A DNA stretch of 64,000 nucleotides, taken from positions 1 through 64,000 of the forward strand of contig NZ_JAGETV010000005.1 in assembly GCF_017571465.1 (NCBI RefSeq). Direction: 5' to 3'. Positions 52,619-60,635 of the stretch are shown here, one piece after another. This DNA is from Thiomicrorhabdus marina. GTDB taxonomy: Bacteria > Pseudomonadota > Gammaproteobacteria > Thiomicrospirales > Thiomicrospiraceae. The position numbers and the translations under genes were made by a program. Position 1 is the stretch's first letter. Every line of letters begins with the position of its first letter. The notes beneath the pieces are model-generated. The model saw only the letters and a program-made list of their open reading frames with translations, ran no database searches and had not been told where the DNA came from.

Positions 52619-53158
52619 GTGGCCAATAAACAAGAATTTTTAACTTTTATTATCGGCCGTGAGCATTTTGCGGTTGAAATTCTTCGCGTACAAGAAATCC
52701 GCGGTTGGGAAAAGCCGAACCCTTTACCAAATGTCCCGCATTTTGTTAAAGGTGTGGTTGACCTGCGTGGCAATATTGTGCCGATTATCGATTTGCGTGA
52801 GCGTTTTCGCCTGACAGCGGAGTATAAAACCACTACGGTAGTGATTGTGGTGCACGTTATTACTTCGCAGGGGGAACGGACGGTTGGTTTGGTTGTGGAT
52901 GCGGTCAGTGATGTGCAGACCTTTGACATGGATAATTTGCAACCGCCACCGGATATCTCTACTGAGGTTAGCTCGCAGTTTATTATCGGTCTAGCGAATT
53001 TGGGGTCGGATGAAGTGAAGAATGCCCAAGATAGTGCGGGGCGCTCTTTGCAAAGCAGTACTTCCGGAATGGTTGTTTTAGTGGATATTGACCGTTTGGT
53101 TAATGAAAGTCTAATTGAGCAAATTTCGGCAACAGATATGCCGGTTGGTAACGGTTAG
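52619..53158 (+). CDS. cheW: Chemotaxis coupling protein CheW (orphan)
   Basis: 179 residues from GTG 52619, seven bases after GGAG, which gives the family start MANKQEFLTFIIG. CheW links receptors to the kinase CheA. The two beta-barrel lobes show FAVEILRVQEIRGWEKPNPLPNVPHFVKGVVDLRGNIVPIIDLRERF and GLVVDAVSDVQTF. A Ser/Gln-rich insertion of about 15 residues occurs near the C-terminus (DEVKNAQDSAGRSLQSSTSG). No cheA, cheY or receptor gene is nearby, so it may serve a distant chemotaxis or pilus system. Confidence 0.93.
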   Translation: MANKQEFLTFIIGREHFAVEILRVQEIRGWEKPNPLPNVPHFVKGVVDLRGNIVPIIDLRERFRLTAEYKTTTVVIVVHVITSQGERTVGLVVDAVSDVQTFDMDNLQPPPDISTEVSSQFIIGLANLGSDEVKNAQDSAGRSLQSSTSGMVVLVDIDRLVNESLIEQISATDMPVGNG

Positions 53159-53208
53159 TTCAGGCTCTAAGTGAGCTATTTTTTGGTTAGCTAAGGTATT
53201 GAATATCG

Positions 53209-54834
53209 TTAGCTTTTTAGTTTGCGAGGGCCTTTCGGTTTTAATATTGTCGGCTTAGCGGTTTTGCTTAAATGAGGGTAATCCAAGTTGTAATGCAGGC
53301 CGCGACTTTCCTTTCGGCGTTGTGCGCTCATCACCATCAGTTCGGCGACCATAGTTAAATTTCGTAGTTCCAATAAGTCGCTGGTAATAAAGTGTTGGCG
53401 ATAGTATTCGCTGACCTCTGCTTGCAGGTTCTTAATGCGTTTGCGAGCACGTTTCAGGCGGCGGTCTGTGCGCACAATTCCGACATAATCCCACATCACT
53501 CGGCGTAACTCATCCCAGTCGTGACTGACCATGATTTTCTCTTTCGGTTCGGTGATGCCGCTGGTATCCCAAGGCTTGGCAATGTACTCATATTCGCCCA
53601 TTGCAGTGAAAGAATTTTCGATGCTCTGATAAGCCATTTTGGCAAATACTAAGCCCTCGGCTAGCGAATTACTGGCAAGGCGATTAGCGCCGTGCAAACC
53701 GGTGTAAGCGGTCTCGCCGATGGCATACAGGCCTTCTAAATCGGTTTTGCCTTCAAGGTTGGCGACAATGCCGCCACAGGTGTAATGGGCTGCAGGCACG
53801 ACCGGAATTTGCTGTTTGGTTATGTCGATGCCGACTTTTTTGCAACGCTGATAAATGGTCGGGAAATGTTGTTTGACAAATTTAGCCGGTTTATGCGAAA
53901 TATCCAGATAAACGCAATCAATACCGTGCTTTTTCATCTCTTGGTCAATGGCACGAGCGACAATATCTCGCGGAGCTAAATCGGCTCGCTCGTCATAATC
54001 TTGCATAAAGGCGTAGCCGTTCGGCAGACGTAAAATACCGCCTTCGCCGCGCACCGCTTCGGTAATCAAAAAAGAGCGGTCTTGCGGGTGATAGAGACAG
54101 GTCGGGTGGAATTGGTTGAACTCCAGATTGGCTACGCGACAACCAGCACGCCATGCCATAGCAATACCATCTCCGGTCGAAGTATCTGGGTTGCTGGTGT
54201 AGAGATAAGCCTTGGAAGCTCCGCCGGTCGCTAAAACGGTGAAATGGGCACTAATGGCGTAAACCTGTTTCTCTTCTTTATTGAGGACATAAGCGCCCAT
54301 GCAACGTTTACGTTTTTTATTGAGAATCAGGTCGATAGAAATATGTTCCGGTAATAACTCAATGTTTGGATGATTTTTCACCTGACGAATTAAGGCATTG
54401 GTAACCGATTGGCCGGTGTGGTCGGCGACATGAATCACTCGGCGATGGCTATGACCGCCTTCTTTGGTTAGATGATATGGGAAGTTTTCGGTCTTGGCGC
54501 CTTCGGTGGTGAAATTAACCCCCATCTCCACCAACTCCAGAATGGTTTCCGCTGCATGAGTTGCGACTACGGCGACCGCTTTTTCATCACATAGGCCTGC
54601 GCCGGCAATTTCGGTGTCTTTAATATGCGCATCAATGCTGTCAAAAGGATCAAGCACGCCAGCAATGCCGCCTTGTGCGTAATTGGTACTGCCTTCTTCA
54701 AGCGACGATTTGGCAAGGACGATAACCTTGTGCTCTTTTGCCAGTTTTAGGGCAATCGAGAGTCCGGCAATACCACTTCCAATGACCAATACTTCGGTGC
54801 TTTTGGAATATGGGTTTGGGCTTTCTTTGCTCAT
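53209..54834 (-). CDS. nadB: L-aspartate oxidase
   Basis: 541 residues from ATG 54834, for which GGAG is well spaced; an in-frame TTG five codons earlier is rejected. The FAD enzyme oxidises aspartate to iminoaspartate, the first step of NAD synthesis. The FAD motif GSGIAGLSIALKLA is at the start, followed by STNYAQGGIAGV, HTGQSVT and TCGGIVANLEGKTDLEGLYAIGETAYTGLHGANRLASNSL in the flavin-binding half. It is divergent from rseC, the place where rpoE normally begins in related genomes. Confidence 0.97.
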   Translation of the reverse strand: MSKESPNPYSKSTEVLVIGSGIAGLSIALKLAKEHKVIVLAKSSLEEGSTNYAQGGIAGVLDPFDSIDAHIKDTEIAGAGLCDEKAVAVVATHAAETILELVEMGVNFTTEGAKTENFPYHLTKEGGHSHRRVIHVADHTGQSVTNALIRQVKNHPNIELLPEHISIDLILNKKRKRCMGAYVLNKEEKQVYAISAHFTVLATGGASKAYLYTSNPDTSTGDGIAMAWRAGCRVANLEFNQFHPTCLYHPQDRSFLITEAVRGEGGILRLPNGYAFMQDYDERADLAPRDIVARAIDQEMKKHGIDCVYLDISHKPAKFVKQHFPTIYQRCKKVGIDITKQQIPVVPAAHYTCGGIVANLEGKTDLEGLYAIGETAYTGLHGANRLASNSLAEGLVFAKMAYQSIENSFTAMGEYEYIAKPWDTSGITEPKEKIMVSHDWDELRRVMWDYVGIVRTDRRLKRARKRIKNLQAEVSEYYRQHFITSDLLELRNLTMVAELMVMSAQRRKESRGLHYNLDYPHLSKTAKPTILKPKGPRKLKS

Positions 54835-55006
54835 TGAAATCTCCGGCAAAAGTGGGTAACAGGGATGTTTCCTATCATAGCGATATTTTTGCCGCTTACT
54901 ATAGGGCTCGCGCTTAATAATTCAAGTAATCTTGTTTAAATAGTCGGTGAAAGGGTATTCTGTAGCAAAATAACCTTTTCCATTGAATCCCTGAAGAGAA
55001 AAATGA
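54835..55006. other. nadB-rseC intergenic region, with no rpoE, rseA or rseB
   Basis: 172 bases between the divergent nadB and rseC genes. It contains no open frame of useful size and no remnant recognisable as rpoE, rseA or rseB, which occupy this place in Escherichia coli and Pseudomonas. It should hold the promoters of both genes. Confidence 0.6.
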
Positions 55007-55540
55007 ATGGAGCAAGAAAAACCAATCAATCGTCCGAGTTCAATGTTGACTGAAACCGCTACAGTAGTCGCGCTGGAGACCGATGCAGATGAAAACCATT
55101 TTGCCTTGCTTGAGGTTCAGCCAAAAAACGGCTGTAGCGGCTGTGCCTCAAGTGGTGGCTGTGGAACATCGGCGCTCTCGCAGCTATTTGTCTCAACCCA
55201 TAAAAAACCGATTAAAGTGCGAAATTACATTGGCGCGCGTGTCGGTGACCGCGTTGAGGTCTCAATGGATCAGTCACGATTGATCAAACATTCTTTTATG
55301 GCTTATGGCTTACCATTAATCGGGCTTTTACTTTTTGCTGTCCTAGCACAGAACTTGGCGCTATCACTGCTTTCCGGCGATGTTGGCTCTCAGGAAAAGG
55401 CACAGGATTTTGCAGAATTATGGGCAATTGCCGGTGCCGGATTCGGTCTTTTTTCCGGTTGGTGGATTACCCGAAAATTCTACCGTCCGGTTGTGCCGGA
55501 AATGCAAAAAATAATTACATCGGATTTTGAACAACTTTAA
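55007..55540 (+). CDS. rseC: RseC/MucC family regulator (SoxR-reducing-system-like)
   Basis: 177 residues. The N-terminal soluble domain has the cysteine cluster NGCSGCASSGGCG that binds iron-sulphur in related proteins. Two transmembrane helices (about 95-115 and 135-155) follow, and a short cytoplasmic tail ends the protein. RseC/MucC works with the sigma-E anti-sigma system or with SoxR reduction. Here the usual upstream rpoE-rseA-rseB genes are missing, so its role may be the redox one. The next gene, mucD, starts 75 bases downstream. Confidence 0.92.
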   Translation: MEQEKPINRPSSMLTETATVVALETDADENHFALLEVQPKNGCSGCASSGGCGTSALSQLFVSTHKKPIKVRNYIGARVGDRVEVSMDQSRLIKHSFMAYGLPLIGLLLFAVLAQNLALSLLSGDVGSQEKAQDFAELWAIAGAGFGLFSGWWITRKFYRPVVPEMQKIITSDFEQL

Positions 55541-55615
55541 AAATGGACTAACTGTCCTTACAACAAAAAAGCTAGATTATTTCCAACACAAGAATCAAAA
55601 ACAAAGGTGGTACGA

Positions 55616-57064
55616 ATGAGACTTCAATTAGTTTCTAAAAACTCCTTGGTTGCTGCAATGCTGGTCTTGGCGGTGATGTTATTGCAACCTAACTTGAGTT
55701 ATGCCAAGACTAATAAATACGGCCTGCCGGATTTCACAGAGTTGGCCGAACAGAATAATAAAGTGGTGGTGAATATCTCCACTATCCAAAAAAAATCTGA
55801 CAAGAAGCGTCAGCAGATGCCGGAGCAATTTAAAGGCATGCCGGAAGAGTTGTTACGTCATTTCTTCGGCATTCCGCCGGAAATGTTCCAGCAGCAGCCG
55901 GACGGTCGTCAGGGTAACAAACCGCAAGTGAGTTCGCTGGGGTCAGGTTTCATTATTAGTGAAGATGGTTATATTCTGACAAATAATCATGTGGTAGAAG
56001 ATGCTGATGAAATCATTGTGCGCATGCGTGACCGCAAAGAGCTGAAAGCCGAATTGATCGGGACTGATCCGCGTACCGATGTGGCATTGATTAAGATTAA
56101 CGCCACCGGTCTGCCGTTTGCGAAAATTGGTACTAGCAAAGACTTGAAAGTTGGGCAGTGGGCTTTGGCGATTGGGGAGCCATTTGGTTTGGATTATACC
56201 GTGACCCACGGCATTATCTCGGCGCTGGGTCGTTCGCTACCTGAAGATACTTATGTGCCGTTTATTCAGACTGACGTACCGATTAACCCCGGTAATTCAG
56301 GTGGGCCGCTATTTAACCTAGATGGTGAAGTGGTTGGTATTAATTCGCAAATCTACTCGAAAAGCGGTGGCTCAATGGGGCTGTCATTCTCGATTCCTAT
56401 TGATATCGCCATGAATGTTGCCGAGCAGTTAAAGAAAAACGGTAAGGTTGTGCGCGGTTTCTTAGGTGTGCAGATCCAAGAAGTTACTAGTGATCTTTCA
56501 GAATCGTTTGGTCTGGAAAAACCGACCGGTGCCTTAGTTGGTGAGGTTTATGATAATACCCCAGCTAAAGAGTACGGCATTCAAGCGGGCGATGTTATTT
56601 TGGAGTTTGATGGCAAGCCGATTGCGAAGTCGTCTGATCTGCCACCTGTGGTTGGTATGACGCCGATTAACAAAAAAGTTAAGGTGAAACTGATTCGCCA
56701 AGGTGAAATCAAATACATTACCGTTAAGTTGACTTCTCTGGATAAGTCCAAAGATTTAGCAATGTCTTCGAATGACGGACTTTTGAATAGTAATCAGTTG
56801 GGGGCAACCATTGAGGATTTGGATCCTGAATGGCTGAAATCGAAAGGTTTGCCGTATGGTGTGCGTGTAACTGATGTTTTCTCCGGCCCGGCTGAACAAG
56901 CGGGGGTACGTACCGGTGATGTGATTGTTACCATCGATTTCAAACCGGTGAAAAGCGTACGTGAATTTAATGAACTAATGAAAAGTTTGCCGAAAAAGCG
57001 TTCGCTTCCAGTACGTGTGATTCGCGACGGTCGTTCGGTATTCCTACCATTGGTATTGGATTAA
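55616..57064 (+). CDS. Periplasmic serine protease MucD/DegP family
   Basis: 482 residues from ATG 55616, with an AGGTGG ribosome-binding site; an in-frame GTG nine bases upstream is rejected. A signal peptide (cleavage near LSYA) leads to a trypsin-like domain with His in NNHVVED, Asp in TDVALIK and the nucleophile in GNSGGPLFN. Two PDZ domains follow (about 285-375 and 390-480) and regulate cage assembly and substrate binding. It degrades misfolded envelope proteins; in Pseudomonas its homologue MucD opposes AlgU signalling. It lies between rseC and lepA, as in mucD-type loci. Confidence 0.95.
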   Translation: MRLQLVSKNSLVAAMLVLAVMLLQPNLSYAKTNKYGLPDFTELAEQNNKVVVNISTIQKKSDKKRQQMPEQFKGMPEELLRHFFGIPPEMFQQQPDGRQGNKPQVSSLGSGFIISEDGYILTNNHVVEDADEIIVRMRDRKELKAELIGTDPRTDVALIKINATGLPFAKIGTSKDLKVGQWALAIGEPFGLDYTVTHGIISALGRSLPEDTYVPFIQTDVPINPGNSGGPLFNLDGEVVGINSQIYSKSGGSMGLSFSIPIDIAMNVAEQLKKNGKVVRGFLGVQIQEVTSDLSESFGLEKPTGALVGEVYDNTPAKEYGIQAGDVILEFDGKPIAKSSDLPPVVGMTPINKKVKVKLIRQGEIKYITVKLTSLDKSKDLAMSSNDGLLNSNQLGATIEDLDPEWLKSKGLPYGVRVTDVFSGPAEQAGVRTGDVIVTIDFKPVKSVREFNELMKSLPKKRSLPVRVIRDGRSVFLPLVLD

Positions 57065-57147
57065 CGTTAACAAACTAAAAGCTGACCTGAAAAAGGCTTT
57101 TATCTAGTTAGACGCTATTAACGATAAATAATGTAACCAAACCGAAT

Positions 57148-57268
57148 TTATCGTAAAATACCGCCTAACTTTTGAAAGCCTATCCATCTGGGAAAGCAGC
57201 TAAAGATGGAAACAAGCAGAGCTTGAATTGGTCATGATTCTCAAAAGGGGCATTTACGCCCCTTTTTT
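57148..57268 (+). ncRNA. Candidate small RNA with terminator between mucD and lepA
   Basis: TGTAAC and TAAAAT spaced 16 bp apart (about 57132-57159) could start a transcript near 57165. It would contain a CCATCT...AGATGG pairing and end at a strong terminator: GGGGC (57247-57251) / GCCCC (57258-57262), loop ATTTAC, six T. Its size would be about 105 nt. The terminator alone could instead end the mucD transcript. Terminator high confidence, RNA low. Confidence 0.3.
57243..57268 (+). terminator. Terminator before lepA
   Basis: AAAAGGGGC / GCCCCTTTT with a 6-nt loop and T tract, upstream of lepA and 180 bases after mucD. Confidence 0.9.
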
Positions 57269-57333
57269 ATTACCAACCTTTATTGTTAATCGATAAAAAC
57301 CAGCCTGCCGGTGAACCTAATTTCGGAGAATAA

Positions 57334-59139
57334 ATGTCTAGCGATTTATCATTAATTCGTAACTTTTCAATTATTGCGCATATCGACCACGGTAAGTCGA
57401 CCATTGCCGACCGTTTCATTCATCTATGTGGCGGTCTGACGGATCGTGAGATGGAACAGCAGGTTCTGGATTCGATGGATATCGAGCGTGAGCGTGGTAT
57501 CACCATCAAAGCGCAAAGTGTGACTTTGAACTACGACGCTGAAGACGGTAAAACCTACCAGTTAAACTTTATCGACACGCCTGGACATGTGGACTTTTCT
57601 TATGAAGTGTCGCGTTCTCTAGCGGCTTGTGAAGGTGCTCTATTGGTGGTGGATGCTTCTCAAGGTGTAGAAGCACAAACAGTCGCTAACTGTTATACCG
57701 CGATAGAACAAGGTCTGGAAGTACTGCCTGTTCTGAATAAAATCGATTTGCCGGCAGCAGATCCGGAACGCGTTATCGAAGAGATTGAAGAGATTGTCGG
57801 TATTGAAGCCGAAGAGGCGGTGCGTGCTTCTGCAAAAGCCGGTATTGGTATTAGTGAAACGCTAGAAGAAATTGTTAAGAAAATTCCTGCACCGGAAGGC
57901 GATATTGATGCGCCGCTAAAAGCCTTGATCATTGACTCGTGGTTCGATAACTATCTGGGTGTGGTTTCTTTAGTACGTGTAATTGACGGTAAGATCGGTA
58001 AAAAAACCAAAATGCGTGTCATGTCGACCAAAGAAGAATACCTTGTTGATGATGTAGGGATTTTTACTCCAAAACGCACCTCTAAGCCGTTCTTGCAAGC
58101 GGGTGAAGTGGGTTATGTTATTGCCGGTATCAAAGATATCGACGGTGCGCCGGTTGGTGATACGCTTGCGAATGCGGCAGAGCCGGAGATTGAACCGCTT
58201 GCTGGTTTTAAACCGGCACAGCCTCGCGTATTTGCCGGTTTATTCCCGATCACCTCGGAAGATTATGAAGATCTGCGTGAATCGTTGCGTAAACTGCGTC
58301 TGAACGATGCGGCCTTACATTTCGAGCCGGAAACGTCTGAAGCATTAGGTTTCGGTTTCCGTTGTGGATTCTTGGGCATGTTGCACATGGAGATTATCCA
58401 AGAGCGACTGGAGAGAGAATACAATCTTGATCTGATTACCACAGCGCCGACAGTGGTTTATGAAGTCTTGACTAAGAAGGGCGAAACGCTGCGCGTCGAT
58501 AACCCGTCGGAATTGCCAGATCCGGGTATTATCGACGAGATTCGTGAACCGATTATCCAAGCCAACATTCTTGTACCGAACGAATATGTCGGGGCGGTAA
58601 TGAAGCTTTGTATCGAAAAACGCGGCGTGCAGAAAGACATGCAGTATTCCGGTGGTCAGGTTTCAATAAACTACGAATTGCCGATGAATGAAGTGGTGCT
58701 GGATTTCTTCGACCGTCTTAAATCGTGTTCGCGCGGTTATGCATCGATGGACTACGAATTCAAACGCTTCCAATCGGATGATTTGGTGCGCATGGACTTC
58801 TTGGTGAATGGTGAGAAAGTTGATGCTTTAGCGGTTATCGTGCACCGTTCATTCGCGGTGCAGCGCGGTAAGATGATTATCGACAAATTGCAAAAAGTGA
58901 TTCCGCGTCAGATGTTCGATGTAGCGATTCAAGCGGCGATTGGCGCGAAAGTTATTGGCCGTACCAACGTCAAGGCGCTACGTAAGAACGTTACTGCAAA
59001 ATGTTATGGCGGTGACGTGTCACGTAAGAAAAAACTGTTGCAGAAACAGAAAGAAGGTAAGAAACGCATGAAGTCGATCGGTAGTGTAGAACTGCCGCAA
59101 GAAGCCTTCTTAGCGATTCTGGATACTGGAGATTCCTAA
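57334..59139 (+). CDS. lepA: Elongation factor 4 (LepA)
   Basis: 601 residues, full length. This GTPase resembles EF-G and remodels stalled or mispositioned ribosomes. G1 is [10 protein letters not shown]2 lies at [12 protein letters not shown]3 DTPGHVD and G4 NKID. The C-terminal domain unique to LepA ends [33 protein letters not shown]. lepB follows after two bases, the conserved lepA-lepB-rnc-era order. Confidence 0.99.
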
Positions 59140-59141
59140 TA

Positions 59142-59912
59142 ATGAATTTTGAACTGATCTTAGTTATCGTCACCTTGGTGACCGGTGTTATCTGGTATGT
59201 TGATAAATTGGTTTGGCGTCCGGCGCGAGTAAAATCGTCAACCGGTGTTAAAGAACCGATTATCGTTGAATATGCGCGTTCGCTATTTCCGGTGTTTTTG
59301 GTTGTATTGATCCTGCGCTCGTTTATTATTGAGCCGTTCCGTATTCCATCTGGCTCTATGTACCCGACTTTGGAAATTGGTGATTTTATTGCGGTTAGCA
59401 AGTTTTCTTACGGTATTAAACTGCCGGTCGTGCAGACTAAAATCATCCCGATTGGTGAGCCTGAGCGTGGTGATGTTGTGGTATTCAAATACCCGAATGA
59501 TCCAGATGTTGATTACATTAAACGTGTTGTCGGCTTGCCGGGTGATGAAGTTGCTTATCTTGGACGTACGCTGTTTATCAATGGCAAAGCGGTCGATATG
59601 AAAGCGATGGGCGTCTATCGAGGTAATGATTCCGGTGCAGTGATGAATGATGCCAAAGTGGTTGAAGAAACTTTCGATAACGGGAAGAGCCATCAGGTTC
59701 TGCATGACACTGATAAGCATGCGATTGATATGCAACCGGTGAAGGTACCGGAAGGGCATTACTTTATGGTCGGTGATAACCGTGACCACTCAAACGACAG
59801 TCGTTTCTGGGGCTTTGTGCCGGAAGAAAATCTAAAGGGTAAAGCGTTCGCTATCTGGATGAATTGGGATAATGGCGTACACTTTAACCGTATCGGTAAG
59901 GGAATCGATTAA
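59142..59912 (+). CDS. lepB: Signal peptidase I
   Basis: 256 residues. Two N-terminal transmembrane segments anchor the protease; the catalytic Ser72 lies in RIPSGSMYPTL and the general base Lys127 in YIKRVVGLPGD, and box E GDNRDHSNDSRFWG is present. It cleaves signal peptides of exported proteins, including the many secreted proteins encoded in this window. It lies 2 bases after lepA and 3 bases before rnc. Confidence 0.98.
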   Translation: MNFELILVIVTLVTGVIWYVDKLVWRPARVKSSTGVKEPIIVEYARSLFPVFLVVLILRSFIIEPFRIPSGSMYPTLEIGDFIAVSKFSYGIKLPVVQTKIIPIGEPERGDVVVFKYPNDPDVDYIKRVVGLPGDEVAYLGRTLFINGKAVDMKAMGVYRGNDSGAVMNDAKVVEETFDNGKSHQVLHDTDKHAIDMQPVKVPEGHYFMVGDNRDHSNDSRFWGFVPEENLKGKAFAIWMNWDNGVHFNRIGKGID

Positions 59913-59915
59913 ATT

Positions 59916-60635
59916 ATGGCTGCTAACAATCCGCCAAAACTTGATCTTGAGCGCACGGCAAAGCTAAACCAGCTTTCTAAAAAACTGGGTTATCAATATC
60001 AAGATTTGCAGTTATTACAGCGTGCTTTGACGCATAGAAGTGTGGGGTCGCGTAATAACGAACGCTTAGAATTCTTGGGTGATAGCTTAGTGAATTACAT
60101 TATTGCCGATGCGCTATTTCATCAGTTTAGCAAGCTACCGGAAGGCGATATGAGCCGAGTGCGTGCGCATTTGGTAAAAGGTGATACCTTGGCGGTAATC
60201 GGGCGCGAGTACGAATTAAGCGATTATCTTGTGCTGGGGCCGGGCGAATTGAAAAGCGGTGGTTTCCGTCGTGATTCGATTATCGCCGATGCCGTGGAAG
60301 CGATTATCGCCTCGGTTTATGAGGACGGTGGTTTGGAACCGACTCGAGAATTAGTGCATCGTTTATATGAAAAACGTCTACAGGAATTAGATCCGAAAAA
60401 GGTCGGTAAAGACCCGAAAACGCGTTTGCAAGAAATGTTGCAGGCATTGAATTCGAGTTTACCGCAATACAGTATTATCAGTGTTAACGGTGCGGCGCAT
60501 GCGCAGGAATTTACCGTTAGTTGTTATGTTGAAAAACTGAATACTAAATTTGAAGCGACCGCTTCAAGTCGTCGTAAAGCGGAACAGAAAGCAGCTGATA
60601 CAGCGATTCAAGCGCTAGAAGAACAGCAATCTTAA
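59916..60635 (+). CDS. rnc: Ribonuclease III
   Basis: 239 residues. The signature ERLEFLGDS is at 49-57 in the RNase III domain, followed by the metal-binding DAVEAIIA segment, and the C-terminal dsRNA-binding domain (PKTRLQEMLQAL ... ASSRRKAEQKAADTAIQAL). It processes rRNA precursors and regulates mRNAs through double-stranded sites. It is part of the lepA-lepB-rnc-era-recO operon. Confidence 0.98.
   Translation: MAANNPPKLDLERTAKLNQLSKKLGYQYQDLQLLQRALTHRSVGSRNNERLEFLGDSLVNYIIADALFHQFSKLPEGDMSRVRAHLVKGDTLAVIGREYELSDYLVLGPGELKSGGFRRDSIIADAVEAIIASVYEDGGLEPTRELVHRLYEKRLQELDPKKVGKDPKTRLQEMLQALNSSLPQYSIISVNGAAHAQEFTVSCYVEKLNTKFEATASSRRKAEQKAADTAIQALEEQQS

Follow-up and report, generated by a model that had tools for sequence, protein, structure and literature searches.

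In Escherichia coli rseC is part of the sigma-E operon rpoE-rseA-rseB-rseC, and in Pseudomonas the corresponding order is algU-mucA-mucB-mucC-mucD. Both arrangements are named in PMC11729352, which also states that V. cholerae and A. woodii assemble Rnf in the absence of RseC and gives side effects of SoxRS as a difficulty for the study of RseC in E. coli. According to PMC9124969, deletion of rseC in Clostridium ljungdahlii led to loss of autotrophy and repression of the rnf genes, rseC adjoins the RNF cluster in this bacterium, and rseC genes occur in RNF-bearing model organisms; Rsx together with RseC is described in PMC12174285. The link between RseC and Rnf has thus already been published and is not new here. 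In the Pfam description RseC still figures as a positive sigma-E regulator. Among the matches listed in openly licensed literature, we found no description of sigma-E loss in the order considered below and, by title and start of abstract, no class-wide study of RseC-Rnf co-occurrence.

Here we describe a locus of this type that has no sigma-E genes. The window, that is, the whole analysed stretch of 64,000 nucleotides from Thiomicrorhabdus marina, lies on contig C55 of a 2.83-Mb assembly (82 contigs, 99.99% complete). As the initial annotation had stated, nadB, rseC, mucD and lepA keep their usual order with only 172 bp between nadB and rseC; the genes are identified by profile matches, and no gene lies in the gap (Table 1).

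Table 1. Features of the nadB-rseC-mucD-lepA locus, in coordinates of the window
Feature	Position	Strand	Remarks
nadB, L-aspartate oxidase	53209..54834	-	left border of the presumed deletion site; NF006567 854.8 bits, cut-off 629
divergent intergenic region, 172 bp	54835..55006	.	site of rpoE-rseA-rseB in RpoE-bearing families
rseC, RseC/MucC-family membrane protein	55007..55540	+	PF04246 (RseC_MucC) 87.7 bits, cut-off 24.4; proposed Rnf (Rsx) accessory
CX2CX5C motif of RseC, residues 43-52	55133..55162	+	
mucD/degP-type periplasmic serine protease	55607..57064	+	TIGR02037 491.9 bits, cut-off 416.2; kept without sigma E
lepA	57334..59139	+	right flank; TIGR01393 979.2 bits, cut-off 533.9
lepB, signal peptidase I	59142..59912	+	right flank; TIGR02227 172.8 bits, cut-off 47

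The start of nadB is taken at ATG 54834 as read from the sequence, the longest frame beginning at TTG 54849, and mucD has an alternative in-frame ATG at 55616. Other than nadB with its 15-bp TTG extension, no open reading frame of at least 60 amino acids reaches into the nadB-rseC gap, and Rfam at gathering cut-offs gives no match in the gap or anywhere in 53000-60000. Remnants of rpoE or rseB were found neither in the gap nor in 40 loci of the order with the RpoE and RseB profiles, the best E-values among 15785 segments being 9.4 and 4.1, neither of them inside the gap. A sigma-70 scan of 54700-57400 yields one site, on the nadB strand, versus 4.5 expected in shuffled sequences, and 15 nadB-rseC sequences, judged by eye, give no useful alignment of a conserved promoter.

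The same arrangement is found across a group of 62 genomes (one family, seven genera), which we take to be the order Thiomicrospirales of GTDB and call the order below; NCBI places Thiomicrorhabdus, to which most of the named loci found via nadB belong, in Gammaproteobacteria, Thiotrichales, Piscirickettsiaceae. In the comparison with relatives proposed in the initial annotation, all 40 further loci, among which some genomes occur twice, have nadB and rseC in opposite orientation, with distances estimated at -10 to 383 bp. These lengths are tblastn-based estimates, used in place of longest-ORF distances because of over-long open reading frames and split nadB frames; L023, with nadB at a contig end and no rseC region, and L025 and L026, from other phyla, were excluded. 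In 36 of the 40 loci mucD adjoins rseC, the others being L028, which ends at a contig edge, and L017, L018 and L088. In these last three loci rseC follows nadB, yet neither mucD nor lepA was found beside rseC. RseC itself is present in 41 of the 42 order genomes examined, and the one that misses it (G035) is 82% complete.

The sigma-E genes are not found elsewhere in these genomes either. RpoE over its cut-off (236 bits) and RseB are each absent from all 62. Weaker matches to the RpoE model occur in 47 of the 62 genomes, the best of them (101 bits) in the window's own genome, and the remaining 15 have no match at E 0.001. The RseA family PF03872, searched in the window's own 99.99%-complete genome only, has no match there. 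A region-2 search of the same genome gives eight sigma-70-type factors, namely FliA, RpoH, a protein of 595 residues taken from its sequence to be RpoD, and five ECF factors, none of which reaches the RpoE cut-off. These five ECF genes, and the 101 bits of one of them (L007) against the RpoE model, are what speaks for the option, raised in the initial annotation, of a sigma factor that moved elsewhere, the sigma-E unit then keeping its control of envelope stress from a new place. However, the L007 factor is assigned to a different equivalog by its score of 290 bits with NF008888 (cut-off 204), and its gene lies beside an integron integrase gene; the neighbours of the other four (L003, L004, L005 and L008) are zf-HC2, RskA/RskA_C or weak generic anti-sigma matches. 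With neither an ECF factor paired with an RseA/MucA-type anti-sigma factor nor a normal rpoE-rseAB unit found in the genome, and with no RpoE over cut-off and no RseB in the order, relocation is hardly credible.

A takeover of the sigma-E envelope-stress role by another ECF/anti-sigma pair, for example that at L008, is a further reading, for which it speaks that four of the ECF genes adjoin candidate anti-sigma genes, of other types than RseA, and that 36 of 40 loci have retained MucD, an envelope protease. The 15 genomes without any match to the RpoE model hint at a variable set of ECF factors and so argue against it, but this argument is weak because the model does not find every ECF factor. 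On balance we consider such a takeover unlikely. The sensor of envelope damage in the order may be another ECF factor, a two-component system, or none.

Several features of the ECF loci are recorded here for their own sake. The NF008888-type gene adjoins the integron integrase gene (TIGR02249, 430 bits) at L123:8890-13226 (G000:C81, about 76.9-81.2 kb), within a stretch of about 3 kb with 57% G+C in a background of 38-49%, near where integron gene cassettes would sit. At L003:448-735 and L004:829-1128, a small gene for a cysteine-rich repeat peptide is located near each ECF sigma gene; these peptides presumably resemble the HvfA type, and a putative DoxX-like gene lies beside one of them. At L008:507-3043, an ECF gene and a weakly anti-sigma-like gene are found near a DsrE-like gene (PF02635, 43 bits), and the pair has no close curated family.

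Gene order in other families bears on whether the module was lost or is primitively absent. Neighbourhoods were compared in 40 of the 143 genomes with both RpoE and RseC (hand-chosen, one per family), in 12 of the 19 with RseC and without RpoE (excluding G108, G120, G159, G209, G221, G297 and G320), in 10 of the 68 with RpoE and without RseC, plus G308, where RseC is elsewhere, and further in G148, G158 and G291. In 39 of the 40 hand-picked RpoE-bearing families, rpoE stands exactly between the divergent nadB and the downstream rseC, and the order therefore most likely deleted rpoE-rseA-rseB. The rseB gene was seen in 35 of these 40 loci, all except L130, L139, L143, L145 and L164. The 10 compared genomes with RpoE and without RseC have rseB followed by mucD (nine) or lepA (one) with no rseC, and nadB upstream in eight. 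The block nadB-rpoE-rseB-mucD-lepA is thus identical in families with and without rseC, and a gene order so widely shared makes loss a better reading than primitive absence. Outside the order, nadB adjoins rseC with no rpoE in G071, G118 and G277, and rseC-mucD without rpoE is found in G064 and G237, where nadB was not seen. The reciprocal state is observed at L173-L181 and L183, where rpoE and rseB adjoin mucD or lepA and rseC is absent.

On a tree of 53 tips, those without RpoE form five groups and five changes are needed, which are five losses if the root had rpoE and four losses plus one gain otherwise; G064 clusters with the order there, with a support of only 0.64. The presence of rpoE in G158 and its absence from G277 of the same family indicate that losses do happen. 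The trees are small and weak at the deep nodes, the addition of an outgroup altered the backbone, and L112, L113, L115, L116 and L119, which have no nadB, mucD, lepA or lepB, are not on them. If the order never had the module and rpoE-rseAB was instead inserted between nadB and rseC in other lineages, the midpoint-rooted tree would fit, as the order is basal there and the root state ambiguous; likewise, the first ingroup branch of the tree rooted with two non-gammaproteobacterial NadB sequences is G118, which on partial data also lacks rpoE. The latter tree, whose backbone is weak, nevertheless nests the order and joins it with an RpoE-bearing family of the usual gene order at a support of 0.98, and this, the common block in families with and without rseC, and the loss within one family all argue against insertion, which we regard as quite improbable. 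The possibility, foreseen in the initial annotation, that close relatives ancestrally lack rpoE is correct for the order itself, but the arrangement in other families speaks for a loss and against primitive absence, on a weakly resolved root. Most likely, and with good support from gene order, there were several losses of rpoE-rseA-rseB, one of them at the base of the order or earlier, the root of the trees being weak.

The retained RseC belongs to the Pfam family by score and falls below the NCBIfam RseC equivalog cut-off (60.4 versus 184). Of 41 order loci, 38 have its three-cysteine motif, which lies towards the N-terminus, as CX2CX5C and the other three as CX2CX4C. The hydrophobicity profile shows one clear stretch at residues 95-126 and no second one above the threshold used, known RseC proteins having two transmembrane helices and both ends in the cytoplasm.

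What RseC is kept with was addressed by scoring RseC, RnfC, RpoE and RseB over the same 274 genomes of the class, at E 0.001 for RseB and RseC, 1e-50 for RpoE and 1e-60 for RnfC. RnfC was preferred to RnfB as a marker of Rnf, since RnfB has a match in every one of the 274 genomes at E 0.001 (247 pass the cut-off); many of these matches are probably separate ferredoxin-like proteins. RnfC was found in 161 genomes (159 pass the cut-off), RpoE in 211 (199 pass) and RseB in 175. RseC and RnfC occur together in 148 genomes and are both missing from 99, with 14 having RseC only and 13 RnfC only (phi 0.80); the association of RseC is much lower with RpoE (phi 0.32) and RseB (phi 0.38). Restriction to 236 good-quality genomes gives 0.83 for RnfC versus 0.32 for RpoE. 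Among genomes with RnfC, RseC is present in 130 of 142 with RpoE and 18 of 19 without it; given RnfC, RpoE adds nothing to the presence of RseC. The 63 genomes without RpoE divide into 18 with both RseC and RnfC, 43 with neither, and one with each alone, and when one genome is taken from each of the 39 families without RpoE, 11 have both and 28 neither, with no mixed cases. One of these 11 families is represented by G159, whose assembly is incomplete and which, having RseB, probably has RpoE as well, its apparent lack probably resulting from incompleteness; G159 (73% complete) and G297 (55%) were both scored as RpoE-negative although RseB is present.

The association is not complete. RpoE is present in 13 of the 14 genomes with RseC only and in 12 of the 13 with RnfC only, and RnfC is present in G142 and G179, which belong to the 10 compared genomes that have RpoE and lack RseC. 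Among genomes without RnfC, RseC is commoner with RpoE (13/69 versus 1/44, p 0.008, p-values here overstating the number of independent events because the genomes are related). Rnf is therefore not all that RseC is linked to, and there may be a connection with sigma E.

A complete rnfABCDGE-nth cluster of the window's genome occupies about 108.8-115.4 kb of the same contig, C55. All six Rnf subunits score over an NCBIfam Rnf cut-off, and rseC stays at the old sigma-E locus about 54 kb away. RnfB over cut-off is present in 60 of the 62 order genomes, the two misses being G016 (85% complete) and G020 (84%). In families outside the order, rseC was found within rnf clusters of three genomes (L116, L167 and L166): it heads rnfABCDGE in two genomes of one family, G176 (which has no RpoE) and G291, and ends the complete cluster in G148. 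Among the RpoE-negative loci outside the order scanned for Rnf, no rnf cluster lies beside rseC in G064, either copy of G093, G169, G237 or G285, that of G169 being about 19 kb from rseC; none was seen beside rseC in G071, G118 and G277 either, on which the Rnf profiles were not run. In G106 and G144, second copies of rseC (L168-L171) lie outside the nadB-lepA locus, with an rnf cluster at a distance of about 21-25 kb. The redox role suggested for rseC in the initial annotation has comparative support from the preserved cysteine motif, the tracking of RnfC, the rnf cluster on the same contig, and the three rnf clusters that include rseC, and RseC in the order is most likely an Rnf accessory.

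A more specific form of redox role would be that RseC stays because it reduces SoxR, its function in E. coli. This role would have both RseC and a complete Rsx/Rnf available, and the SoxR model gives weak matches in 18 of the 62 order genomes at E 0.001. Yet SoxR over its cut-off (116.9 bits) occurs in none of the 62, the best score being 70 bits and the only match in the window's genome 28.7 bits, and SoxR reduction is therefore an unlikely reason for the retention of RseC, indeed a very improbable one.

Taken together, we favour, at a probability of roughly three in four, the reading that the ancestor of Thiomicrorhabdus, Hydrogenovibrio and their relatives lost rpoE-rseA-rseB from between nadB and rseC, that RseC was kept for its work with the Rnf (Rsx) electron-transport complex, and that MucD was kept under another promoter. 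RseC would be a membrane protein whose CX2CX5C motif is able in E. coli to bind an Fe-S cluster, and it would probably support Rnf electron transfer, assembly or expression, most likely via this motif; sequence data cannot separate effects on these three. In the order it would act without sigma E and probably without SoxR. We infer this action on Rnf, and likewise the regulation of mucD: mucD, beside rseC in most loci of the order, must be expressed without sigma E, and MucD would stay as a periplasmic quality-control protease served by some other promoter. The order-wide absence is real and most likely due to loss, which most likely took place elsewhere as well, and the explanation for the retained rseC is a good one, not a proven one.

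Beyond the order, we give somewhat better than even odds to the view that gammaproteobacterial RseC is first and foremost an Rnf accessory, with the sigma-E operon only as its genetic home, and that outer-membrane homeostasis in the order, a group of free-living Gram-negative bacteria, proceeds without any sigma-E system. Part of this view is a double dissociation, in which the locus cleanly loses either rpoE-rseAB or rseC, and retention of rseC mostly goes with the presence of Rnf. For studying what RseC does, a lineage with RseC and Rnf and without RpoE, RseB or a recognisable SoxR offers a natural experiment, free of the SoxRS side effects that PMC11729352 names for E. coli. It also raises the question of what means a Gram-negative order has, when the sigma-E pathway is missing, to sense the state of its outer membrane.

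Compared with the described systems, the window locus sits between nadB and lepA like the sigma-E loci of E. coli and Pseudomonas, and its rseC is followed by mucD as in algU-mucABCD of Pseudomonas. Unlike both, it has no rpoE, rseA or rseB, and RpoE over cut-off and RseB are found in 0/62 genomes of its order. The combination of a complete rnfABCDGE-nth cluster with an RseC carrying CX2CX5C resembles RsxABCDGE-RseC of E. coli; the difference from the SoxR-reducing system, as presented in PMC11729352, is that no SoxR over cut-off occurs in the 62 order genomes. As in Clostridium ljungdahlii, RseC is tied to Rnf in the window's group. To our knowledge, C. ljungdahlii has no rpoE-rseA-rseB operon; the window's rseC, in contrast to that of C. 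ljungdahlii, has remained at the old sigma-E locus, about 54 kb from rnf, and in a Gram-negative host.
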